From the NCBI RefSeq assembly GCF_030363035.1, contig NZ_JAUCMN010000001.1:372001-436000 (forward strand): 64,000 nucleotides of DNA, read 5' to 3'. Below the pieces are notes generated by a model. That model saw only the letters and a program-made list of their open reading frames with translations. It had not been told where the DNA came from and made no database searches. Both the position numbers and the translations under genes were made by a program. Position 1 is the first letter of the stretch. Each line of letters starts with the position of its first letter. Source of the DNA: Curtobacterium caseinilyticum (GTDB lineage: Bacteria > Actinomycetota > Actinomycetes > Actinomycetales > Microbacteriaceae). Below are positions 9,061 through 21,218 of the stretch, one piece after another.

Positions 9061-10497
9061 TCAGCGGCCGGAGCCGGCGACGACCCCCGTGTCGCGGGCG
9101 AGCAGGTCGTCGATCGACTCGCCACGGACGAGGATACGGGCTGTGCCGTCCGCGACCGCGACGACCGGCGGGCGTCCGACGTGGTTGTAGTTGCTCGACA
9201 GCGACCAGCAGTAGGCACCGGTCGCGGCGACGGCGAGCAGGTCGCCACGGTGCACGTCACCGGGCAGGTACTCGTCGTGCACCACGACGTCGCCTGACTC
9301 GCAGTGCTTCCCGACGACCCGGGTCAGGACCGCGGGCGCGTCCGAGGTCCGCGCCAGCCGGGCTGTGTAGTCGGCGCCGTACAGCGCCGGGCGTGCGTTG
9401 TCGCTCATGCCCCCGTCGACCGAGACGTACGTCCGGGTGGCCGTGGCGCCGGGGACGCCGGTGTGGTCCTGGCCCGCGTCGACGTCGGAGAGCGTCACCG
9501 GCTTGATGGTGCCGACCCGGTAGAGCGTCACGCCGGCGGGGCCGACGATGTACCGCCCCGGCTCGACCGCGACCTCGGGCACCGGGATGCCACGCTCGGC
9601 GCAGGCCTCGGCCACGATGGACGCGAGGGCCTCGGCCACGTCCTCGGGCGCGAACGCCGAGTCGGCCTCGGTGTAGTCGATCCCCCAGCCACCGCCGAGG
9701 TTGAGCTCCGGCACCGGCCCGGACGCGACGAGCTCGGCGTGCACGTCCATGAGCCGCCGCGCGGCCTCGCGGAACCCGGACTCGTCGAAGATCTGCGACC
9801 CGATGTGCGAGTGCAGCCCGACGAACGCGAGCGACGGCTCGGCGCGGACGGCCGCGGCGGCGTCGACGGCCTCGGTCAGGGGGATGCCGAACTTCTGGTC
9901 CTCGCGTGCCGTGGCGAGGTACTCGTGCGTCGAGGCGTGCACGCCGCTGTTGATCCGGATGCGGACGCGCTGGACGGTGCCCGCGTCGGCAGCCGCCCGG
10001 GCGACACGCCCGATCTCCTCGTGGCTGTCGAGCACGATCGTGCCGAGCCCGACCTCGACCGCACGGGCGATCTCGGCGTCCGACTTGTCGTTGCCGTGGA
10101 AGCCGAGCATCGCCGGGTCCGCGCCGCCGGCCAGTGCGACCGCGAGCTCGCCGGCCGTGCAGACGTCGAGCCGGAGCCCGGCCTCGGTCATCCAGGCGGC
10201 GACCTGCGTCGTGAAGAAGGCCTTCGCGGCGTAGTAGACGTGGGCCCGGGTCCCGATGCGCCCGAACGCCTCGGTGAAGGCGGTGCGGACGCGGGCCGCG
10301 CGGGCCTGCACGTCGCGCTCGTCGACCACGTAGAGGGGCGAGCCGAACTGCTCGACGAGGGCGGAGGCGGAGATCCCGCCGATCGCGAGCTCGCCGTCGT
10401 CGGTGCGCGTCGCCGACGCCGGCCAGATCCGCGCGGTCAGCGCGGAGGCGTCGTCCGGGAACCGCAACCGCGGCGGGGCAAGGGGGTTCGCGCTCAC
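9061..10497 (-). CDS. lysA: Diaminopimelate decarboxylase
   Basis: Last step of lysine synthesis, decarboxylating meso-diaminopimelate with PLP. Fold-type III alanine-racemase-like barrel: the PLP lysine is in VYYAAKAFF near residue 88, ELNLGGGWGIDY binds phosphate, GRYIVGPAG and the active-site cysteine loop GKHCESGDVV follow. The frame stays open far upstream, but the GTG at 10497 is chosen because TAGGAT lies about nine bases before it, a leaderless promoter, and the protein then starts like its relatives. 478 residues. First gene of the lysA-hom-thrC-thrB run. Lysine made here could feed the Pls-like synthetase at 14.3 kb; that link is speculative. Confidence 0.96.
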   Translation of the reverse strand: MSANPLAPPRLRFPDDASALTARIWPASATRTDDGELAIGGISASALVEQFGSPLYVVDERDVQARAARVRTAFTEAFGRIGTRAHVYYAAKAFFTTQVAAWMTEAGLRLDVCTAGELAVALAGGADPAMLGFHGNDKSDAEIARAVEVGLGTIVLDSHEEIGRVARAAADAGTVQRVRIRINSGVHASTHEYLATAREDQKFGIPLTEAVDAAAAVRAEPSLAFVGLHSHIGSQIFDESGFREAARRLMDVHAELVASGPVPELNLGGGWGIDYTEADSAFAPEDVAEALASIVAEACAERGIPVPEVAVEPGRYIVGPAGVTLYRVGTIKPVTLSDVDAGQDHTGVPGATATRTYVSVDGGMSDNARPALYGADYTARLARTSDAPAVLTRVVGKHCESGDVVVHDEYLPGDVHRGDLLAVAATGAYCWSLSSNYNHVGRPPVVAVADGTARILVRGESIDDLLARDTGVVAGSGR

Positions 10498-10565
10498 GGG
10501 ACCCGATCCTAGCGAGCCGGGGCGTGCCTCCCGTCCGGTGTTACGCCCGCCGGCCGCGCTCCCCT

Positions 10566-11321
10566 TCAGTCGCAGGTACCGACCGTGCGGAGTCCCTGCT
10601 CCGTGAGCGGCAGCGTGTCGGCGGTGACGCGCACGGTGGCGTGCTGCGCGCTGATGTCGAGCGACCTGACGCGGAGCTGCTCGGGGAGGAAGCGGGCGGT
10701 GCAGACCTCGACCGGGACGTTCGTGACCCCGGGGATCGAGTCGACGCCGAGCCCGAGCGCCGAGTTCGTGATGCGGACGCTCCGCGGGGTGATCGTGACC
10801 CCCCGCCCGTCGGCCTGGGCGACGACCCGTCCCGTCGCCGCGTAGGTGATGTCGTAGCCGAGCACCGCGGTCGAGCCGGACAGCTCCACGCCGCCGTCGA
10901 CGAGCCGCATCCGGTCGAACAGCGGGCTGTACTTCGCGAGGTCCTTCAGGCTCGACGCTGCCAGGGTCACGTGCCCGTCCACGTCGTGCACGTCGCCCTT
11001 GCCGTCGACCGGGACGTCGTGCACGGTGACGTCGGCGGCGAGCGGGACCCCGTCGACCGTCAGCCGCTCCGAGGAGATGTCGACCCGGTCGAGCGTGCCG
11101 GCGAGGAGCTGCGGGACGACGATGCCGTCGGCGTGCGCGGTGACCTCGCCGGTCGCGCCCTCGGGCAGCGACTGCTCGACCTGGTCCGCGATGATCCGGT
11201 CCACCACGCTGCGCAGGACGAGCTCGGCGACGACGACCAGGGCGGCGAGCACGAGCACCACCACGACGAGGACGACGGGCCAGCGACGGCGCTTCCGGGT
11301 GGGTTCGGTGGCTGCGGACAT
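10566..11321 (-). CDS. LmeA-like phospholipid-binding protein (DUF2993)
   Basis: Membrane-anchored or exported protein of the DUF2993 family, whose mycobacterial member LmeA takes part in lipomannan maturation. One N-terminal membrane helix (about residues 15-38, WPVVLVVVVLVLAALVVVAEL) follows a basic stretch. The rest alternates short beta strands typical of the family (GTLDRVDISSERLTVDGVPL, SLKDLAKYSPLF). I start at ATG 11321; a GTG nine bases earlier is also possible. It lies between argS and lysA, separated from argS by a strong inverted repeat. Family call fairly firm, molecular role inferred. Confidence 0.78.
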   Translation of the reverse strand: MSAATEPTRKRRRWPVVLVVVVLVLAALVVVAELVLRSVVDRIIADQVEQSLPEGATGEVTAHADGIVVPQLLAGTLDRVDISSERLTVDGVPLAADVTVHDVPVDGKGDVHDVDGHVTLAASSLKDLAKYSPLFDRMRLVDGGVELSGSTAVLGYDITYAATGRVVAQADGRGVTITPRSVRITNSALGLGVDSIPGVTNVPVEVCTARFLPEQLRVRSLDISAQHATVRVTADTLPLTEQGLRTVGTCD

Positions 11322-11409
11322 GCGTCCCACCCTGCCAGGCTCCTCCGGCAGCCGGCCTGGAGGCGCGGGTGCGGCCCGGCGGGCGCGGCGGGCGGGCGGG
11401 CGCGACGGC

Positions 11410-11471
11410 GGAACCAGGTTCCGGACACAGCACCGTGGAAGAACGCGGTGTCGTGTCCGGAACCTGGTTCC
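11410..11471. repeat. Perfect 19-bp inverted repeat with structured loop
   Basis: Arms 11410-11428 and 11453-11471 are exact reverse complements (left arm GGAACCAGGTTCCGGACAC). The 24-base loop contains a further 5-bp stem (CACCG/CGGTG), and each arm holds its own near-palindrome GGAACC-A-GGTTCC. It lies in the 204-bp gap between argS and the DUF2993 gene. No T-run follows on either strand, so it is not a classical intrinsic terminator. Confidence 0.85.
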
Positions 11472-11525
11472 CGCGAGCCGGGTGCGCGCGTCGCGCGCCC
11501 CGCTCCGCCCCGCTGCGACCCTGCG

Positions 11526-13196
11526 CTACATGCGCTCGGGCGCGCTCACCCCGAGCAGGCCGAGGCCGTTGCGGACGACCTGGCCGGTGGCGTCGTTCAG
11601 CCACAGGCGCGTGCGGTGCAGGTCGGTCACGGCCTCGTCCCCGAGCGGCGTCACGCGGCAGGCGTCGTACCAGCGGTGGTAGAGGCCGGCGAGCTGCTCG
11701 ATGTAGCGCGCGATGCGGTGCGGCTCGCGGAGCTCGGCCGCCTGGCGCACCACCCGCGGGTACTCCGCCAGCGCCCCGAGCAGCGCCCCCTCGGTCTCGT
11801 GGGTGAGCAGCGACGCGTCGAACGCCGAGCGGTCCACGCCCGAGGCAGCGGCGTTGCGGGCCACGGACTGCGTGCGGGCGTGGGCGTACTGCACGTAGAA
11901 GACCGGGTTGTCGTTGGTCCGCTTCGTGAGCAGGTCGAGGTCGATGTCGATCGCGGTGTCGCTGGCGAACCGGACGAGCGCGTACCGGCCGGCGTCCACA
12001 CCGACGGCGTCGACGAGGTCCTCCATCGTGACGATCGTGCCGGCACGCTTCGACATGCGCATCGGCTCGCCGTCCTTGAGCAGGTTGACCATCTGCCCGA
12101 TCAGGATCTCGAGGTTCGTGCCCGGCTCGTCGCCGAAGGCCGCGCACATCGCCATCATCCGGCCGACGTAGCCGTGGTGGTCCGCGCCGAGCATGATGAG
12201 GTTCCGCTCGAACCCGCGCTCGCGCTTGTCGAGGTAGTACGCCAGGTCGCCCGCGATGTAGGCCGGCTGCCCGTCGGACTTGATCACCACGCGGTCGCGG
12301 TCGTCGCCGAAGTCGGTCGTGCGGAGCCAGAGCGCGCCCTCGGCCTCGTACATCTTGCCGAGCGACTGCAGCCGCTCGATGGCCCGCTCGACGGCCTTCG
12401 ACTCGTGCAGGGAGTTCTCGTGGAAGTAGACGTCGAAGTCGACGCCGAAGTCGTGCAACGACGACTTGATGTCCGCGAACATGAAGTCGACGCCCTCGCG
12501 GCGGAACAGCTCCTGCGCCTCGTCGCGCGGCAGGTCCGTCACGTCGGTGCCGGCCGGCAGCGTCGCGATCACGCGCGCGGCGATCTCGGCGATGTACGCG
12601 CCGCCGTAGCCGTCCTCGGGGGTCGGCTCGCCGAGCGCGGAGGCGACGAGGGACCGGGCGAAGCGGTCGATCTGCGCGCCGTGGTCGTTGAAGTAGTACT
12701 CGCGGGTGACGAGGCCGCCCTGTGCCTCGAACACGCGGGCGAGGCTGTCACCGACGGCGGCCCAGCGCACGCCGCCCATGTGGATCGGGCCGGTCGGGTT
12801 CGCCGAGACGAACTCGAGGTCGATGCGGACGCCGTCGTACAGGTCGCCACGCCCGAACGCCGAGCCGGAGTCGACGATGGTGCGGGCGATCGCACCGGCG
12901 GCCGCGGCCTCGAGCGTGATGTTGATGAAGCCCGGGCCGGCCACGTCGACCGACGCCACACCGTCGAGCTCGGTCAGCTCCCCGGCGATCTCGGTCGCGA
13001 GCTCGCGCGGGTTCGTGCCGAGGCGCTTCGCGAGCTGCATCGCGGCGTTCGACGCCCAGTCGCCGTGCGCGCGGTTCTTCGGCCGCTCGAGGGCCACGTG
13101 GGACTCCCCGATCGTCACGGTGTCGGACGCGCCTCGTCGCTCGACGATCCCGGTCAGGATCGACAGGTACGCGGCGGAGAGTTCGGCAGGAGTCAC
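11526..13196 (-). CDS. argS: Arginyl-tRNA synthetase
   Basis: Class I aminoacyl-tRNA synthetase charging tRNA-Arg. The N-terminal Add-1 domain (residues 1-110) recognises the tRNA D-loop. [20 protein letters not shown] carries the HIGH-type motif (HMGG) near residue 133 and MRMSKRAGT is the KMSKS-type motif near residue 378. The C-terminal DALR anticodon domain ends with [11 protein letters not shown]. 556 residues, normal. GTG start with TAGACT eight bases upstream suggests leaderless translation. A tRNA-Arg gene lies 0.8 kb away. Confidence 0.98.
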
Positions 13197-13267
13197 GAGG
13201 GTCGAGTCTACCGGGACGCCCAGCGGACTCGGGGCCGGGGCCGGACGTCGTGCAGCATCATGTCCGG

Positions 13268-13837
13268 ATGACCACCCGCAGCCGTGCCAGGGCGATCACC
13301 GTCGCCGCCCTCACCGTCTCCGCGTCCGCCGTGCTGGCCGGGTGCGCCGGGTCGGAGGACGCGGCACCGAGCGCGAGCGCGACGCCGATCGGCACGGCCG
13401 TGCGACAGACCTGCGACGAGCTGCTGCCGGCGAGTGCGCTGGCCGTCTACGGGACGACCCTCCGGCAGGACACCGACTGGCGCCCGGCGAAGGGCACCCC
13501 CGCGGCGACCATCGAGCGCCAGCGCGGCCGCGCCTGCCGGTTCGTCGCCACCGACGACCCGTCGACGACGGTCACGCTCGCCGTCGCGCACCTGCCTGAG
13601 AAGTCGCTCACGACGCTGAAGGACGCGCTGTACGAACGCGGTGGCTCGGTCCCGACCTACCGGGTGGAGGGGTACTACGCCCTCGACGGCGGAGTCGGTC
13701 GCGCGGACGCCTTCCCGGACCCGTACTGGATCACCACCGAGTCGACGCTCTACACCGAGCCCGGAGGGGCGCAGCCCGTCGTGGACGCTGTGCGCGCGGC
13801 GCTGCAGCCGACCGCGACGGCCAGCCCCGCGGGCTGA
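13268..13837 (+). CDS. Lipoprotein of unknown function
   Basis: Short signal peptide with lipobox: basic N-terminus MTTRSRARA, hydrophobic core, then LAGC with the lipidated cysteine near residue 23. The mature part (about 165 residues) has two further cysteines (QTCDELL and RACRFV) that could form a disulfide. I recognise no family; it looks like the small extracytoplasmic lipoproteins common in Microbacteriaceae. The ATG at 13268 is preferred over one 18 bases earlier because of CATCAT upstream and the shorter n-region. Convergent to nothing; a perfect hairpin follows. Confidence 0.75.
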
Positions 13838-13971: not shown

Positions 13972-14043
13972 GCCCCCATAGCTCAGGGGATAGAGCACTG
14001 CCCTCCGGAGGCAGGGGCGGAGGTTCGAATCCTCCTGGGGGCA
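13972..14043 (+). tRNA. tRNA-Arg (anticodon CCG)
   Basis: Complete cloverleaf of 72 bases without encoded CCA. Acceptor stem GCCCCCA/TGGGGGC with discriminator A, D-arm GCTC...GAGC, anticodon stem CTGCC/GGCAG with loop CTCCGGA (anticodon CCG, reading CGG), variable loop of 4, T-arm GGAGG-TTCGAAT-CCTCC. CGG is a frequent arginine codon in such GC-rich genomes. Confidence 0.97.
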
Positions 14044-14076
14044 CTCGGAAACTCCCGCGCAAGCGGACGTTCTGCT

Positions 14077-14236
14077 GCGCTCGATCGGCCGCGCGCGATG
14101 TTGCCTGCGGCGACCGTCCCCCAACGTCACGCCCGACATGCGAGTCACCTGCGCTCGATCTGCGTCGCGCGATGTCGCCTGCGGCGACCGTCCCCCGCTC
14201 GCACCCGACATGCGAGTCACCTGCGCTCGGTCTGCA
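14077..14236. repeat. Tandem ~72-bp repeat, 2.2 copies
   Basis: Copy 1 is 14077-14150, copy 2 is 14151-14220, and a partial third copy runs to about 14236. Each begins GCGCTCG, contains CGCGATGTCGCC-type sequence followed by the small hairpin GTCGCC-TGC-GGCGAC, and ends CCGACATGCGAGTCACCT. Located between tRNA-Arg and the Pls-like gene. The GCGATGTCGC words recall the palindromes at 35.75-35.85 kb. Confidence 0.8.
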
Positions 14237-14284: not shown

Positions 14285-17200
14285 ATGAGCACCGGCACCA
14301 CCGACACCCAGGCGGGACTCGCCCGCGGGCAGCATGCGCCCGCGCCGCGCACCCTGCTCGACGTCCTCGAGGCGACCGCGGCGGCCCACCCGGACGCGCT
14401 CGCACTCGAGGACCCCGAGGGGACGATCGACTACGCATCGCTGCTCCGGCTCGTCCGCACACGCGCCGACGACCTCGCCACGCGCGGCGTGCGGCGCGGC
14501 GACCGGGTCGGCGTGCGCATCCCGTCCGGAGGCCGCGACCTGTACCTGTCGATCCTCGCCGTGCTGGCGGCCGGCGCCGCGTACGTCCCGGTCGACGCCG
14601 ACGACCCCGAGGAGCGCGCCGCCCTGGTCTTCGGCGAGGCCGGGGTGGTCGGTGTGATCGGTGCCGGCGGGGTCCTGCGGCAGAGCGGTGCGCCGGACGC
14701 CGAGCCGTCACCGGTCGTCGACCCCGGAGCCCGCGCCGAGGCACCGACCACCGAGGACGACGCCTGGGTCATCTTCACGTCGGGGTCGACGGGTGTGCCG
14801 AAGGGTGTCGCGGTGACGCACCGCTCCGCCGCGGCGTTCGTCGACGCCGAGGCCCGGATGTTCCTGCAGGACGCCCCGATCGGTCCGGGCGACCGCGTCC
14901 TCGCGGGTCTCAGCGTGGCGTTCGACGCCTCGTGCGAGGAGATGTGGCTCGCCTGGGGGCACGGCGCCTGCCTGGTCCCCGCGCCGAGGTCGCTCGTCCG
15001 GACCGGCGTGGACCTCGGCCCGTGGCTCATCGCGCACACGATCACGGTCGTCTCGACGGTCCCGACCCTCGCGGCGCTCTGGCCGGACGACGCCCTCGAG
15101 CAGGTCCGACTCGTGATCTTCGGCGGCGAGGCATGCCCGCCCGAGCTCGCCGCCCGCATCGCGTCCCGTGACCGGGAGCTGTGGAACACGTACGGCCCGA
15201 CCGAGGCCACGGTCGTCGCGTGCGGTGCGCTGCTCGACGGCTCCCAGCCGGTGCGCATCGGGCTGCCGCTGGACGGCTGGGACCTGGCGGTCGTCGACGA
15301 CCGGGGACAGCGCGTCGCCCCGGGTGGTGTCGGCGAGCTCGTCATCGGTGGGGTCGGGCTCGGCCGGTACCTCGACCCCGCGAAGGACGCCGAGAAGTAC
15401 GCGCCGTTCCCCGAGCTCGGCTGGGACCGGGCCTACCGGAGCGGGGACCTCGTCCGGTACGAGCCCGAGGGCCTGGTCTTCCAGGGCCGCGCGGACGACC
15501 AGGTGAAGCTCGGCGGCCGCCGCATCGAGCTCGGCGAGGTCGACGCGGCGCTGCAGGGCCTCGACGGCGTGGCGGGCGGTGCCGCCGTCGTGCAGCGGAC
15601 ACCGGCCGGCAACCAGGTGCTCGTCGGGTACGTCGCCCCGGTCGCGGGCACCACGATCGACACCGCGGCGGCGAACGCCCGACTGCGCGAGGAGCTGCCC
15701 GCCGCGCTCGTCCCGCTCCTGGCCGTCGTCGACGCGCTGCCGACCAGGACGTCGGGCAAGGTCGACCGCGCCGCACTCCCCTGGCCGCTGCCGGGTGCGA
15801 CCGACGCCGCCCTGCTGCCGGACACCGTGGCCTGGATCGCCGAACGATGGTCGGCGATCCTCGGCGTCCCCGTGACGAGCGTCGACGACGACTTCTTCGC
15901 GCACGGCGGCGGCTCGCTCACCGCAGCGCAGCTCGTGTCGGCGATCCGCGAGCGCTTCCCCACGACGACCGTCGCCGACGTGTACGACCACCCGCGCATC
16001 GGCGCCCTGGCCGCGGCCCTCGACGACGCCGGCCCGAGCGCGGCGGCACGACGCCCGGTGCGCCCGGTGCCCCCGACGACCGGGCTGCTGCTCACGCTGC
16101 TCGGCCTGCCCATCCAGCTGCTGCGCGGCCTGCGCGTCCTGACCTGGACCGCCCTGGTCGCCGCGGTGCTGCACGCCACGACCCTGCCCGTCGTCCCGGT
16201 GCTCCCGTGGTGGGCGCTGGTGGTCGCCCTGGTCCTGTTCGTGACGCCGATCGGCAAGATGGCGGTCACCGTCGTCCTCGCCCGGGTGCTGCTCGCGGGT
16301 GTCCGCCCCGGCGACCACCCGCGCGGCGGCTCGGTGCATGTGCGCGTCTGGCTCGCCGAGCGGATCGCCGAGGCCGTCGACGGCCCCTCGACCGCCGGCG
16401 CACCGTGGATCAGCTACTACGCGCGGGCGCTCGGTGCCCGCATCGGCCGCGACGTCGACCTGCACACCCTGCCGCCGGTCACCGGCATGCTCACGATCGG
16501 CAAGCGGGCGTCGATCGAGCCCGAGGTCGACCTCGTCGGGCACTGGGTCGACGGCGACCTCTTCCGGCTCGGCCACGTCCGCGTGGACGCCGACGCCGTC
16601 GTGCACAGCCGCTCGACGCTCCTGCCCGGCGCGCACGTCGGCGAGGGCGCGGAGGTCGAGGCCGGCTCCGCCGTCACCGGCAGGGTCCCCGACGGGGAAC
16701 GCTGGGCGGGCTCGCCCGCGGAACGCACCGGGTCGGCACGGCACGGCCGGGAGGCACGTCCCCCGGCCCGACGCCGTTGGCTCGTCGCGTACGGGGCCGC
16801 ATCGGTGCTCGTGGCCGGGCTGCCCGTCGCGGGCGTCGCCGCCGGGACGGCCGTGGCCGTCGCGCTCGTCGGGCCCGCCGGCACGCTCGGCGCGGCCGTG
16901 CTGCGCGGTCTCGCCGCCGTGCCGCTCGCGACGCTCGTCGCGGGCCTCGTCTACGCGGTCCTCGTGGTCGCGGCCGTCCGGCTGCTCGCACTCGGCCTGT
17001 ACGAGGGACGGCACCCGGTCCGGTCCCGACCCGGGTGGCAGGCGTGGTGCACCGAACGCGTGCTCGACGCCGCCCGCACCCTGCTCTTCCCGCTGTACGC
17101 CTCGCTCGTGACCCCGCTGTGGCTGCGGGTGCTCGGCGCGCGGGTCGGGCGGGACACCGAGGTCTCGACCGTGCTCCTCATCCCGTCGCTCACGCAGATC

Positions 17201-18232
17201 GCCTCGGGTGCGTTCCTCGCCGACGACACGATGGTGGCGACGTACGAGCTCGGGGGCGGCTGGATCCGGATCGGGCGGTCGAAGATCGGGCGGCGGGCGT
17301 TCCTCGGCAACTCCGGGATGACCGGCCCCGGGCGGTCGGTCCCCCGCGAGGCGCTCGTCGCCGTGCTCTCCGCCGTGCCGAAGAAGGCGAAGCGTGGCTC
17401 CTCCTGGCTCGGGTCGCCCCCGGTCCGACTCCGCCGCGCGACGACCGAGTTCGACGAGGAGCGCACGTTCCGCCCGCTCCGCCGGCTCAAGGTCGCGCGG
17501 GGCTGCTGGGAACTGCTCCGGCTGGTCGCGCCGATGGTGTCCGCGGCGATCGCCCTCGGCGTCGGCGGTGCGCTGCTCGCCCTCTGGTCGGCCGTCGGGA
17601 TCGGCTGGACCGTGCTGCTCGCCGGGCCCGTGCTCCTCGTCGCCGGAGCCGTCGCGGCCGCCGTGTCGACGCTCGCCAAGTGGGTCTTCGTCGGACGGAT
17701 CGAGGCGCGGGAGCACCCGCTGTGGTCGTCCTTCGTGTGGCGGAACGAGGTGCAGGACACCTTCGTCGAGACGGTGGCGCGCCCGTGGTTCGCCGAACAG
17801 GCCACCGGCACCCCGGCCCTCGCTGCCTGGCTGCGCAGCCTCGGCGCGCGGATCGGCCGCGGGACCTGGATCGAGACGTACTGGCTGCCGGAGGCCGACC
17901 TCGTGTCGATCGGCGACGGCGCGTCGGTCGCCCGCGGCACCGTCGTGCAGACCCACCTGTTCCACGACCGGGTGATGCAGCTCGACACCGTGCTGCTCGA
18001 CGCCGGGGCGACGCTCGGTCCCCACAGCGTCGCCCTGCCCGCCGCGGGGATCGGCGCGGGCGCCACCGTCGGTCCGGCGTCGCTCGTGATGCGCGGCGAG
18101 CAGGTCCCGGGCGGCACGCAGTGGGCGGGCAACCCGATCGCACCGTGGACGACCGGCCCGTCGGTGCCGGTCGCGGAGCGCACCGCCGGGACGGACCGGG
18201 ACGCCGTCGTGGCAGACTCGACGGCACCGTGA
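14285..18232 (+). CDS. Pls-like nonribosomal peptide synthetase: adenylation + carrier + six-TM/triple hexapeptide-repeat C-terminus
   Basis: Architecture of epsilon-poly-L-lysine synthetase (Pls) and its relatives, membrane enzymes that polymerise one amino acid into an isopeptide homopolymer. Residues 1-520 are an adenylation domain: FTSGSTGVPKGV (A3), FDASCEEMWLAWGHGACLV (A4), NTYGPTEATVVA (A5), YRSGDLV and FQGRADDQVKLGGRRIE (A7-A8), and the A10 lysine in RTSGKVDR. A carrier domain follows with DDDFFAHGGGSLTAAQ, phosphopantetheine serine near residue 543. The C-terminal ~720 residues hold three membrane-helix pairs (about 600-680, 832-910, 1075-1140), each followed by a left-handed beta-helix-like segment starting LGARIGRD, LGARVGRD and LGARIGRG. 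There is no condensation or thioesterase domain, as in Pls. TATGAT eight bases before the ATG suggests a leaderless promoter. Coupled to the next gene by a 4-bp overlap. Substrate unknown. Confidence 0.88.
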   Translation: MSTGTTDTQAGLARGQHAPAPRTLLDVLEATAAAHPDALALEDPEGTIDYASLLRLVRTRADDLATRGVRRGDRVGVRIPSGGRDLYLSILAVLAAGAAYVPVDADDPEERAALVFGEAGVVGVIGAGGVLRQSGAPDAEPSPVVDPGARAEAPTTEDDAWVIFTSGSTGVPKGVAVTHRSAAAFVDAEARMFLQDAPIGPGDRVLAGLSVAFDASCEEMWLAWGHGACLVPAPRSLVRTGVDLGPWLIAHTITVVSTVPTLAALWPDDALEQVRLVIFGGEACPPELAARIASRDRELWNTYGPTEATVVACGALLDGSQPVRIGLPLDGWDLAVVDDRGQRVAPGGVGELVIGGVGLGRYLDPAKDAEKYAPFPELGWDRAYRSGDLVRYEPEGLVFQGRADDQVKLGGRRIELGEVDAALQGLDGVAGGAAVVQRTPAGNQVLVGYVAPVAGTTIDTAAANARLREELPAALVPLLAVVDALPTRTSGKVDRAALPWPLPGATDAALLPDTVAWIAERWSAILGVPVTSVDDDFFAHGGGSLTAAQLVSAIRERFPTTTVADVYDHPRIGALAAALDDAGPSAAARRPVRPVPPTTGLLLTLLGLPIQLLRGLRVLTWTALVAAVLHATTLPVVPVLPWWALVVALVLFVTPIGKMAVTVVLARVLLAGVRPGDHPRGGSVHVRVWLAERIAEAVDGPSTAGAPWISYYARALGARIGRDVDLHTLPPVTGMLTIGKRASIEPEVDLVGHWVDGDLFRLGHVRVDADAVVHSRSTLLPGAHVGEGAEVEAGSAVTGRVPDGERWAGSPAERTGSARHGREARPPARRRWLVAYGAASVLVAGLPVAGVAAGTAVAVALVGPAGTLGAAVLRGLAAVPLATLVAGLVYAVLVVAAVRLLALGLYEGRHPVRSRPGWQAWCTERVLDAARTLLFPLYASLVTPLWLRVLGARVGRDTEVSTVLLIPSLTQIASGAFLADDTMVATYELGGGWIRIGRSKIGRRAFLGNSGMTGPGRSVPREALVAVLSAVPKKAKRGSSWLGSPPVRLRRATTEFDEERTFRPLRRLKVARGCWELLRLVAPMVSAAIALGVGGALLALWSAVGIGWTVLLAGPVLLVAGAVAAAVSTLAKWVFVGRIEAREHPLWSSFVWRNEVQDTFVETVARPWFAEQATGTPALAAWLRSLGARIGRGTWIETYWLPEADLVSIGDGASVARGTVVQTHLFHDRVMQLDTVLLDAGATLGPHSVALPAAGIGAGATVGPASLVMRGEQVPGGTQWAGNPIAPWTTGPSVPVAERTAGTDRDAVVADSTAP

Positions 18233-19554
18233 AGCCGAACCCCGACGCCGACCCGTACACCCCGCACAGCGGCGACCGGCGGTGGAGCGCCCTGCACTAC
18301 GACCTTCGCCTCGTTTACCGCGTCGCGACGAACCGCCTCGACGCCACCGCGACCGTGACCGGCCGGGCCGTCGAGCGCCTGGACCGGATCGTGCTGGACC
18401 TGCACGGGCTGCGCGTCGACCGCGTCGACGTCGACGGCACCCGCGCGGCGAAGGTGTCCTCGTCGACGCACAAGACCACCGTGACACCCGCCGAGCCGGT
18501 CGCCGCCGGCGTGGAGTTCTCTGTGCACGTGCGCTACCACGGCTCCCCCCACCCCCTGCGGAGCCCGTGGGGACAGATCGGCTGGGAGGAGCTGACCGAC
18601 GGCGTCATCGTCGCCTCCCAGCCGACCGGTGCCCCGTCGTGGTTCCCGTGCAACGACCGCCCCGACGACAAGGCGACGTACCGGCTCGAGGTCACGGCGG
18701 AGTCCGGCTACGACGTCGTCGCGAACGGCGACCTGCTCGGCCGTGATCGTGCACGTGCTGGCACGACGTGGACCTACGCCGTGACGGAGCCGATGGCGAC
18801 CTACCTGGCGACCGTGCAGATCGGCCGGTACCGCACGACCACGGTGCGCGGCACCCCCGCCGTCGCCGTGCACCACCCCGCCGACCTCGCCGCCCCGGTG
18901 CGGACGGACTTCGGCCGCGTGCCGGACATGATCGCGCTCTACTCGGAGCGCTTCGGGCCCTACCCGTTCTCGTCCTACGGCGTCGTGGTGACGGACGACG
19001 AGCTGGAGATCCCGCTCGAGGCACACGGCCTGGCCGTCTTCGGTCGGAACCACGTGGACGGCGAGCACGGGACCGACCGGCTCATCGCGCACGAGCTCGC
19101 GCACCAGTGGTTCGGCAACTCGGTCACGGTCGCGCGGTGGCGGGACATCTGGCTGCACGAGGGCTTCGCCTGCTACGCCGAGTGGCTGTGGTCGGAGCAC
19201 CGCGGCGGCGACTCGGCGGACACGCTCGCGGAACACCACCGCCGGCAGCTGCTCGCCAGCCCGCAGGACCTGGTCGTGGCAGATCCCGGTGCCGCGGACA
19301 TGTTCGACGACCGCGTCTACAAGCGCGGCGCCCTGGCCCTGCACGCCGTGCGGCGGACGTTCGGCGACGACGCCTTCACCACGGCGCTCCGGACGATCAC
19401 GTCGGCGCACCGACACGGCACGGTCCACCCCAGCGGCGTGTACGCGGCCGTGGCAGCGGCGGCCGACGTCCCCGTCCTCGCCGTCCGTCGGGTCACCGGA
19501 CCGTGGATCGACGAGCCCGGTGTCCCCGAGCTGCCGGTCCCCGGGACGGCCTAG
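18229..19554 (+). CDS. M1-family zinc metallopeptidase, candidate polymer-degrading partner of the Pls-like synthetase
   Basis: Gluzincin aminopeptidase of family M1: RLIAHELAHQWFGNSV near residue 287 gives the HEXXH zinc site, and WLHEGFA supplies the third ligand after exactly 18 residues. A Tyr usually acting in catalysis could be in DRVYKRGALAL. The N-terminal beta-saddle domain is present, but at 441 residues it lacks the large C-terminal helical domain of PepN. The GxMEN exopeptidase motif is replaced by IPLEAHGLAVF, so N-terminus recognition may differ. The GTG start at 18229 overlaps the Pls-like stop (GTGA). In Streptomyces, M1-type enzymes degrade epsilon-poly-lysine; that role is inferred here from the linkage. 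Its stop shares CTAG with the convergent XRE gene. Confidence 0.85.
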   Translation: MKPNPDADPYTPHSGDRRWSALHYDLRLVYRVATNRLDATATVTGRAVERLDRIVLDLHGLRVDRVDVDGTRAAKVSSSTHKTTVTPAEPVAAGVEFSVHVRYHGSPHPLRSPWGQIGWEELTDGVIVASQPTGAPSWFPCNDRPDDKATYRLEVTAESGYDVVANGDLLGRDRARAGTTWTYAVTEPMATYLATVQIGRYRTTTVRGTPAVAVHHPADLAAPVRTDFGRVPDMIALYSERFGPYPFSSYGVVVTDDELEIPLEAHGLAVFGRNHVDGEHGTDRLIAHELAHQWFGNSVTVARWRDIWLHEGFACYAEWLWSEHRGGDSADTLAEHHRRQLLASPQDLVVADPGAADMFDDRVYKRGALALHAVRRTFGDDAFTTALRTITSAHRHGTVHPSGVYAAVAAAADVPVLAVRRVTGPWIDEPGVPELPVPGTA

Positions 19555-19832
19555 ACCCCGGTCGCGCCCTTGCCGGCGGCGGCTGCGGTGACGGGGTGCA
19601 CCTCGGCCCAGAGCGCGTCGAGGGAGAGACCGACGACCCCGGAGACCGCGGCGATGGTGGCGAAGGACGGTGTCGCGATCCGGCCGGTCTCGATCTTGCG
19701 CAGCGTCTCCGGCGAGATCCCGGCGCTCAGGGCGACGTCGAGCATCGAGCGGTCGCCACGGGCGGAACGGAGCAGCGCGCCGAGGCGACGACCGCGTTCG
19801 AGCTCGTCCGGGCTGAGCGGGAGTCGGACCAT
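19551..19832 (-). CDS. XRE-family helix-turn-helix regulator
   Basis: Small DNA-binding protein of 93 residues. The helix-turn-helix spans about residues 15-70: LGALLRSARGDRSMLDVALSAGISPETLRKIETGR, typical of Cro/XRE domains. No effector domain. It is convergent with the M1 peptidase (stops share a CTAG) and divergent from map, 47 bp away, with a palindrome between them. TAGCAT seven bases before its ATG suggests leaderless expression. It probably represses itself and map; control of the Pls pair is possible but not shown. Confidence 0.85.
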   Translation of the reverse strand: MVRLPLSPDELERGRRLGALLRSARGDRSMLDVALSAGISPETLRKIETGRIATPSFATIAAVSGVVGLSLDALWAEVHPVTAAAAGKGATGV

Positions 19833-19845
19833 GCTGCCGATGCTA

Positions 19846-19869
19846 GTACCGGCCGGACAATACCGGTAC
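19846..19869. promoter_or_regulatory. Palindromic operator candidate between the XRE gene and map
   Basis: GTACCGG at 19846-19852 and CCGGTAC at 19863-19869 form a 7-bp inverted repeat with a 10-base spacer. It is the centre of the 47-bp divergent gap and lies between the two leaderless -10 boxes (TAGCAT for the XRE gene, TACGAT for map), so a bound dimer would cover both promoters. Confidence 0.6.
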
Positions 19870-19879
19870 GATCATCGGC

Positions 19880-20650
19880 ATGATCGAGATCCTCTCCCCC
19901 GCCGAGGTCGACCGCGCACGCCGGACCGGCGCGCTCGTCGGCACGATCCTGCAGGCCCTCCGCGCCCGGACGGCGGTCGGCACGAACCTGCTCGAGATCG
20001 ACCGGTGGACCCGGACGATGATCGAGGACGCGGGGGCGGTGTCCTGCTACGTGGACTACGCACCGTCCTTCGGGCGGGGGCCGTTCGGACACCACGTCTG
20101 CACCGCCGTGAACGACGCGGTCCTGCACGGCCTCCCACACGACCGCGTGCTCACCGACGGGGACCTGCTCACGCTCGACCTCGCGGTGTCGCTCGACGGG
20201 ATCGCCGCCGACGCCGCGATCAGCTTCGTCGTCGGCTCGGCGGACCCGGCTGACACCGCCATGATCGCGACCACGGAACGCGCCCTCGCGGCCGGCATCG
20301 CGGCGGCGCGGCCGGGTGCCAGGACCGGGGACCTCTCGCACGCGATCGGCAGCGTGCTCACCGCGGCCGGGTACGCGGTCAACACCGAGTTCGGCGGCCA
20401 CGGCATCGGCTCGACGATGCACCAGGACCCGCACGTGGCCAACACCGGGAAGCCGGGGCGCGGCTACACGCTGCGGCCGGGCCTGCTGCTCGCCGTCGAA
20501 CCGTGGGTGATGGCCGACACCGACGAGCTCGTCACCGATGCCGACGGCTGGACGCTCCGGAGCGCCACGGGCGGGCGGACGGCGCACACGGAGCACACGA
20601 TCGCGATCACGGAGGACGGCGCCGAGGTCCTCACACGACCGGCGGGCTGA
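19880..20650 (+). CDS. map: Methionine aminopeptidase type I
   Basis: Removes the initiator methionine from new proteins; di-metal enzyme of the pita-bread fold. Metal ligands visible: the two aspartates of LTLDLAVSLDGIAADAAI near residues 95-107, His in GGHGIGSTMHQDPHV near residue 173, Glu in LAVEPWV near residue 208 and Glu in HTEHTIAI near residue 239. HHVCTAVNDAVLHG matches the substrate-pocket histidine region. No N-terminal zinc-finger extension. 256 residues. Probably an accessory copy, since the housekeeping map is normally in the ribosomal-protein cluster. TACGAT seven bases before ATG. Its 3' end overlaps the convergent PPTase gene by 20 bp. Confidence 0.92.
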   Translation: MIEILSPAEVDRARRTGALVGTILQALRARTAVGTNLLEIDRWTRTMIEDAGAVSCYVDYAPSFGRGPFGHHVCTAVNDAVLHGLPHDRVLTDGDLLTLDLAVSLDGIAADAAISFVVGSADPADTAMIATTERALAAGIAAARPGARTGDLSHAIGSVLTAAGYAVNTEFGGHGIGSTMHQDPHVANTGKPGRGYTLRPGLLLAVEPWVMADTDELVTDADGWTLRSATGGRTAHTEHTIAITEDGAEVLTRPAG

Positions 20651-21218
20651 CCCGGTCGTCGACGAGCACCGGGAGTCCCCCGGCGGCCACCGCGAGCACG
20701 GTCCCCGGCGCGGGCCACAGGACGGTGACGGGCTGTTCCACCCCGCCGAACCGGGCGACCCCGCGGGCGAGGTCGACCTCGACGGCGACCGGGTCGACCC
20801 GCAGGCCTCGACCGTCCCGCTTGAGGACGGCCTCCTTGACGGCCCACGCGGCGGCGCGGTCACGGTCGTCGCGCAGCCGTCGTCGCTCGTCCGGCCCGGA
20901 GGCGTCGAGCGGGGCGGCGGCCACGCGGGCGACCTGCTCGAGGTCGATGCCGATCGAGGTGTCCCCGTCGACCGGTCCGGAGACCGCGGCGACGGCGGTG
21001 CTGCCGCCGGTCCGCGCGGCGCTCACCGGTACGGGTCGGCCGTCGGCAGTGGCCCACGGGCGGCCGTGCGCCCGCGATCCGCAGTGCGGACAGCTGCGAC
21101 CCACGCGCACCCCCGTGGTGTCGGTGGCCGCAGCTGACGCGACGGCGGTGAGCAGGGCCTCCCGGTCGGCGCCGGTGGGCACGATCGTCACCTGGACGGT
21201 GCTGGACGGACGGGCCAC
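20631..21218 (-). CDS. 4'-phosphopantetheinyl transferase superfamily protein
   Basis: Transfers phosphopantetheine from CoA to the serine of carrier proteins. Signatures: IGIDLEQV near residue 88 (magnesium aspartate and glutamate) and WAVKEAVLKRDGRGL near residue 125 (the WxxKEAxxK motif). A zinc-type CPHCG...HGRPW segment near residues 43-54 is usual in Sfp-like enzymes. 195 residues, short but with the core motifs. It lies 2.4 kb beyond the Pls-like gene, whose carrier domain needs such an enzyme; a role in activating it is a reasonable inference. It overlaps the 3' end of map by 20 bp, antisense. Confidence 0.87.
   Translation of the reverse strand: MARPSSTVQVTIVPTGADREALLTAVASAAATDTTGVRVGRSCPHCGSRAHGRPWATADGRPVPVSAARTGGSTAVAAVSGPVDGDTSIGIDLEQVARVAAAPLDASGPDERRRLRDDRDRAAAWAVKEAVLKRDGRGLRVDPVAVEVDLARGVARFGGVEQPVTVLWPAPGTVLAVAAGGLPVLVDDRVSPPVV

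Follow-up and report, generated by a model that had tools for sequence, protein, structure and literature searches.

Is a phosphopantetheinyl transferase (PPTase) gene that faces a putative homopoly(amino acid) synthetase gene a working part of the same system, or only its neighbour? The question arises from positions 14,285 to 21,218 of a 64,000-nucleotide stretch of Curtobacterium caseinilyticum DNA (NCBI RefSeq assembly GCF_030363035.1, contig NZ_JAUCMN010000001.1, positions 372,001 to 436,000, forward strand), hereafter the window. We read this region, with a probability of roughly 0.82, as a locus for epsilon-poly-L-lysine that follows the published pls-pldII pattern and has a linked PPTase as its third gene, the roles of all three being predicted. 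Directly supported are the anatomy of the locus, the lysine-type pocket of the synthetase, the coupling of pls to an M1 peptidase gene, and the joint presence, absence and loss of the pls-M1 pair and the PPTase gene. The pls-pldII pair has already been published for Streptomyces and Corynebacterium; the PPTase partnership and the co-loss are the new part. As far as our literature search reaches, the PPTase gene had not been remarked as a conserved third gene at pls loci: no paper linking the two was found, with most subscription papers outside the reach of the search. Papers are cited below by PMC number, for those parts of their text that were available. The features that carry the argument are:

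14285..18232, plus strand: pls, predicted epsilon-polylysine-type synthetase, 1315 aa (TIGR02353, 700.3 bits; best PDB match 7wew_A, 652 bits)
14366..15778, plus strand: adenylation domain of pls, residues about 28-498 (pocket D214, A215, E218, S257, I278, G280, T302, V310, V311, K492)
15833..16021, plus strand: carrier domain of pls, residues 517-579 (GGGSLTA motif starting at residue 541, with Ser544 as presumed attachment site of phosphopantetheine)
16094..18139, plus strand: C-terminal region of pls (three times two membrane helices and one left-handed beta-helix domain)
18229..19554, plus strand: M1 metallopeptidase of PldII type, 441 aa (PF01433, 93 bits; PF17900, 57 bits; HEXXH at 288-292, E311)
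20631..21218, minus strand: Sfp-type 4'-phosphopantetheinyl transferase, 195 aa (PF01648, 29.8 bits, cut-off 25; fold match)

The open reading frame (ORF) at 14285-18232, whose single in-frame start is the ATG at 14285, encodes a complete synthetase of Pls/PosA type, in the TIGR02353 group. The family profile matched residues 604-1285 well above its curated cut-off of 423.1 bits for this terminal domain. A reading of the locus made earlier from its letters alone (the sequence-only reading) had proposed a Pls-like protein, and its C-terminal region does fall inside the Pls/TIGR02353 group. Pfam returned AMP-binding (28-359), PP-binding (517-579) and one weak Hexapep match, and found no condensation or thioesterase domain in the 1315 residues. 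The proposed alternation of six membrane helices with three beta-helix-like domains was borne out by hydrophobic clusters at residues 601-674, 831-909 and 1073-1137 and by an AlphaFold2 model of residues 590-1315 (42 sequences, mean pLDDT 90.9), in which two long helices and then a beta-helix form a unit that occurs three times. The top Foldseek matches of this C-terminal model were serine acetyltransferases and other hexapeptide acyltransferases. An adenylation-carrier plan free of condensation and thioesterase domains, six membrane helices and three hexapeptide-like domains together make the layout of Pls and PosA.

Ten pocket positions, read from the anchors FDASCEEMW, GGEA, TYGPTE and SGK, spell DAESIGTVVK. 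The adenylation domain of epsilon-poly-L-lysine synthase in 7wew, which is also the closest PDB relative of the window's domain, has identical letters in the alignment. Because the pocket equals that of a solved epsilon-polylysine synthase, L-lysine is the predicted substrate, which narrows the choice among lysine, ornithine, diaminobutyrate and arginine that the sequence-only reading had left for such a comparison. The same code, or DAESVGTVVK, occurs in 127 of the 133 Pls rows of the genome set.

The M1 gene lies directly after pls on the same strand and starts inside its stop (GTGA, 18229-18232), giving the 4-bp overlap already picked out in the letters. Its zinc site (H288, E289, H292 and E311) is conserved at more than 98.5% per position when the window's sequence is aligned with 207 other M1 rows. 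Identity to the M1 proteins beside pls at 12 loci of family f37, which is Streptomyces-like, runs at 47-52%. The enzyme is a likely epsilon-polylysine hydrolase, as judged by family and structure. In Streptomyces albulus, pldII and pls likewise overlap by 4 bp in one operon (PMC4361855; PMC9223678). The window shares with that operon the domain plan, the 7wew pocket letters, the next-gene M1 and the overlap. It differs in the PPTase facing the pair, which was not found at the 13 pls loci of family f37, and in that the Curtobacterium product is a predicted one. Corynebacterium variabile, also a non-filamentous actinobacterium, has the same pair, and its pls and peptidase gene led to epsilon-polylysine when placed in S. 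coelicolor, whose strain M145 lacks a pls of its own (PMC8117764). That paper has Microbacterium among the genera with matches, and a term search of its main text, as available, met neither phosphopantetheinyl transferase nor Curtobacterium.

The PPTase gene faces the pair from the minus strand, its near end 2.4 kb past the pls stop, where the sequence-only reading had placed it. Its identity is settled because the predicted fold (AlphaFold2, pLDDT 94.1) matched known enzymes, human AASDHPPT (E 3.6e-6) and Sfp (E 9.2e-6), where a search of its sequence against PDB gave no match. Residues G90, D92, E94, W125, E129 and K133, which we take to be the catalytic signature of the Sfp-type class, are invariant in 40 pls-linked PPTase sequences. 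The PF01648 score above cut-off, the fold, and the acidic residues with the lysine are those of an Sfp-type PPTase. The protein shares fold and signature with Sfp and AASDHPPT, and differs from them in its 195-aa length, in an invariant C43, C46 and H51, and in an identity of 14-15% to its top matches. The Cys-x2-Cys-x4-His pattern (residues 43-51), also invariant in the 40 sequences, is a possible metal site.

We then have, judging by family and structure, a plausible division of labour. Acting on the carrier serine, the PPTase would bring Pls into its holo form; activation of L-lysine and its loading on the carrier would fall to the adenylation domain. The three hexapeptide-like membrane domains would couple the epsilon-amino group to the carboxyl of the next residue, with polymerisation at the membrane and release of the cationic polymer outside. 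The M1 peptidase would trim or destroy the polymer, providing self-protection.

Linkage was followed in 65 Curtobacterium genomes besides the window's, with pls-positive meaning above the TIGR02353 cut-off, and at 75 pls loci of other genera (60 from a class-level set and 15 from the search that also gave the Curtobacterium counts). Six genomes fetched before were not repeated in the class-level set, and full-length loci in G133 and G274 were left out. Matches in G295 (two), G276, G267, G337, G188, G321, G172, G329, G168 (two), G199 (three) and G076 (two) were excluded as falling short of a full Pls, their frames being mostly below 1200 codons; the second G076 match (L111) was under the score limit. 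Among the 65 genomes, 58 carry pls, including G045, in which the pls frame appears broken. M1 adjoins pls in all 58 (truncated at a contig edge in one case) and at 67 of the 75 other-genus loci. A facing PPTase occurs at 56 of the 58, counting G032, where the gene is split over two frames and possibly broken; the two without it are G009, whose contig ends there, and G026. Linkage of both genes thus persists in close relatives, as the sequence-only reading would have it. As a side observation, two loci of Curtobacterium sp. Leaf183 (L091 and L231, the latter from G045) have a pls frame apparently broken in the adenylation domain, with M1 and PPTase present.

Outside Curtobacterium, a facing PPTase was found at 20 of the 75 loci, spread over ten families: f1 (6/8), f45 (4/9), f16 (2/2), f18 (2/3), f14 and f6 (1/2 each), and f12, f38, f54 and f9 (1/1 each). 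It was not found in f22 (0/20), f37 (0/13), f35 (0/6), f7 (0/3), or f11, f41 and f58 (0/1 each). The gene remains linked even where rearranged, lying upstream in G069 and on the other strand in a Pseudarthrobacter locus (L284). A set of named loci, the best 80 of 277 matches and overlapping the genome sample, holds 50 non-Curtobacterium loci, with M1 at 50/50 and PPTase at 30/50. PPTase is present there in Microbacterium (16/17), Plantibacter, Cryobacterium, Agreia, Agrococcus, Agromyces, Arsenicicoccus, Terrabacter and Leifsonia (1/4), and was not found in Rhodococcus (0/7), Mycobacterium (0/4), Mycolicibacterium (0/2), Kribbella (0/1) or Lacisediminihabitans (0/1). As a control for chance gene order, pls and M1 were masked and the 4123 neighbouring ORFs of the window and the 75 loci compared all against all. 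The most recurrent neighbour group was that of the PPTase, with 16 loci in 12 genera and 7 families; another PPTase group added 3 further families and 3 loci.

Further evidence for partnership comes from genomes that have lost the system, in which three further features serve as landmarks:

13972..14044, plus strand: tRNA-Arg(CCG), borders the pls block upstream, and its end flanks the empty sites on the left
19551..19832, minus strand: XRE-family regulator, 93 aa, a passenger (at 33/58 Curtobacterium pls loci, always with the methionine aminopeptidase)
19880..20650, plus strand: type I methionine aminopeptidase, 256 aa, a passenger with XRE (TIGR00500, 226.6 bits, cut-off 171.35)

Seven Curtobacterium genomes are pls-negative: G022 and G025 (73% and 65% complete) and G040, G051, G055, G059 and G064 (99-100%). 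None of the seven has a close M1 relative (six have a distant match of about 30%, as does the window genome, and one has none) or an intact PPTase of the pls-linked kind, of which G059 keeps a short remnant. Loss of pls-M1 with the PPTase kept was not seen among them. In the empty sites of G055, G025 and G059, the tRNA-Arg side leads to XRE and methionine aminopeptidase, both matched without in-frame stops, and then to the next gene; pls, M1 and the whole PPTase are gone. Where pls-M1 would lie, G055 and G059 have a junction of about 80 bp and G025 about 1.1 kb of unrelated sequence. In G051 and G064 the whole pls block is swapped for a common 2.8-kb segment (L293 12392-15216, L294 12671-15483) whose frames, identified by eye, resemble MarR, Gfo/Idh and alcohol dehydrogenase genes. 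By parsimony, four losses fall on a pspA-region tree without G022 (contig of 3 kb), several nodes of which are weakly supported (down to 0.066), and two on an argS tree holding three pls-negative tips. Both are single-gene trees; 9 Curtobacterium stretches lack a pspA-region match, and argS was usable in 56 rows.

All seven pls-negative genomes keep other carrier domains (one in G040), and none is without a PF01648 protein; the PPTase that disappeared was therefore neither their sole one nor needed for the remaining carriers. G026 is the exception: pls and M1 are still there (94% and 86-88%), but of the PPTase only a 17-residue trace is left. Its contig C31 (275641-285749) carries a 3618-codon non-ribosomal peptide synthetase (NRPS) frame with three carrier domains, and a PF01648 gene lies about 3.3 kb further. 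It is the only one of 16 genomes searched with such a three-carrier frame, and its second PPTase may stand in for the lost one. The window genome has three PF01648 places (one AcpS-like, one on contig C4 and the pls-linked one) and four carrier domains, including that of an adenylation-carrier-thioesterase (A-T-TE) synthetase on contig C8. With two more PF01648 places in the genome, Pls has other candidate activators besides the linked PPTase; that the linked one probably charges the Pls carrier domain is argued from linkage and co-loss. On the other two contigs, we observed a second carrier system on C4, where a carrier protein, the PF01648 protein and an acyl-CoA dehydrogenase adjoin (L113 13545-16329), and on C8 a fatty acid desaturase frame beside the 1057-aa A-T-TE synthetase (L114 4672-7845).

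Several observations weigh against the epsilon-polylysine reading with its three partners. The PPTase linkage is not universal, because 55 of the 75 other-genus loci have no facing PPTase. The next most recurrent neighbour group, apparently ABC transporter ATPases, reaches 7 families, 7 genera and 8 loci, farther from pls. Foldseek TM-scores for the PPTase model are modest (0.40-0.63) despite clear E-values. The 4-bp pls-M1 overlap occurs in 24 of the 58 Curtobacterium rows only. No hydrophobic N-terminal segment was seen in the window M1, and this is at odds with simple export; PldII is reported outside the membrane (PMC9223678). The role of the peptidase is itself unsettled. A review has Pld and PldII inactivation leaving yield and chain length unaltered (PMC8506220), in conflict with longer chains on PldII repression (PMC9223678), and the literature is split on whether PldII sets chain length. 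Polymer was not detectable in C. variabile culture, though the gene is present, nor did C. glutamicum expressing C. variabile pls yield any, though the protein was present (PMC8117764). Given these two results, the window locus may be silent.

How well, then, do other explanations fare? The one that survives best holds that the PPTase is a general cell enzyme that happens to lie nearby, so that linkage reflects conserved gene order with no shared function. It draws on the position of the gene, on the opposite strand and outside the pls transcript, on the 55 loci just mentioned and on the Curtobacterium genome that has pls without it. We think it unlikely all the same. The PPTase is linked in ten families, while argS, lysA, XRE, methionine aminopeptidase and TPM genes were not found at the other-genus pls loci (TPM checked at 15 of the 75). 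It was lost along with pls-M1 across a kept gene pair, and it is absent or broken in 7/7 pls-negative genomes that still hold other carrier domains. The exception, G026, has another PPTase by an NRPS.

A slightly weaker contender grants the co-loss and ascribes it to selfish or shared inheritance in a deletion-prone border region, with no functional coupling. The replacement in G051 and G064, where the whole block gave way to 2.8 kb of other genes, fits this, the losses number only four on one single-gene tree and two on another, and G025 is 65% complete. In G055, G025 and G059, by contrast, the losses lie on both sides of the intact-looking XRE-methionine aminopeptidase pair, and because both flank this retained pair a single deletion is inadequate. 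We therefore hold this explanation to be improbable.

Far less probable is that Pls makes another cationic homopolymer, such as delta-poly-ornithine, gamma-poly-diaminobutyrate, poly-diaminopropionate or poly-beta-lysine, even if the TIGR02353 region is common to all these synthetases, pocket codes give prediction rather than proof, and single residues shift the preference of PosA (PMC10522769). The window's letters match 7wew and differ from those of PosA, the ornithine enzyme (DMEHNGTVSK), and of the Streptoalloteichus poly-beta-lysine enzyme (DGESISVVNK), and alanine at pocket position 2 marks the lysine type (PMC10522769). PosA, the delta-poly-L-ornithine synthetase of Acinetobacter baumannii, resembles the window Pls in family and in its adenylation-carrier-membrane plan, but it differs in code and sits in a single-gene operon without a peptidase (PMC10522769); gene context also differs for the other three synthetases known in 2021 (PMC8117764). 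PldII-type M1 goes together with the lysine code, adjoining pls in 203 of 207 lysine-code rows versus 0 of 4 rows of other code, a count that takes in duplicates of some genomes and the window itself. Separately, the Pls-family proteins at L109, L201, L203 and L204 have the pockets DFEYNGTVTK, DFECLSAVTK and DFEYIGTVTK (two), lack an adjacent PldII-type M1 and possibly make other polymers.

That the XRE gene controls the pls cassette, as the sequence-only reading had it, is equally doubtful: XRE does sit between M1 and PPTase, with its stop overlapping the M1 end, but it is found at 33/58 Curtobacterium and 0/75 other-genus loci, always comes paired with the methionine aminopeptidase and is retained in three pls-negative genomes.

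Having set these aside, we return to the epsilon-polylysine locus with its linked PPTase. We lean towards a broader view in which many non-Streptomyces actinobacteria carry a self-contained cassette (synthetase, its own degrader and a private PPTase) that is gained, kept or lost as a unit and serves an NRPS-poor lineage, the PPTase being droppable only with another at hand. The absence of polymer from coryneform pls outside Streptomyces has been ascribed to unknown regulation (PMC8117764). Should many pls loci come with a PPTase of their own, failed coryneform pls expression would have a simple alternative explanation in incomplete carrier activation. With pls in 58 of 65 sampled species genomes of a leaf and litter genus that lives on plants and in soil, a polycationic antimicrobial is a plausible core trait of Curtobacterium, and the pls-negative species are a natural control at hand. 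The bare presence of such clusters is routinely detected, since antiSMASH-type 'NAPAA' calls exist for related genera, as the available sources indicate.

The remaining neighbours stand outside the cassette. XRE and methionine aminopeptidase (19551-20650) are passengers, a mobile-looking pair between M1 and PPTase of which the 58 Curtobacterium loci have both or neither, and which was not found at the 75 other-genus loci. The gene order M1-XRE-PPTase had been read correctly save for the omission of the methionine aminopeptidase. Upstream lie two further genes:

11529-13196, minus strand: argS
C-terminal part of ORF 9061-12147, minus strand: lysA

The suggestion that lysA, about 4 kb upstream, is a meaningful neighbour found no support, and lysA as a substrate supply was dropped; it belongs to a divergent argS-lysA neighbourhood on the minus strand. 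Neither gene was found at the 75 other-genus loci, a weak negative for lysA because those stretches end about 4 kb upstream of pls; within Curtobacterium, 31 of 64 stretches reach it. Large plus-strand ORFs upstream of pls (e.g., 10524-13271) were taken as spurious because they are antisense to argS and lysA and have no family match. Between the tRNA-Arg gene and pls lies a 26-bp exact direct repeat (14132-14157 and 14204-14229), its copies 72 bp apart.

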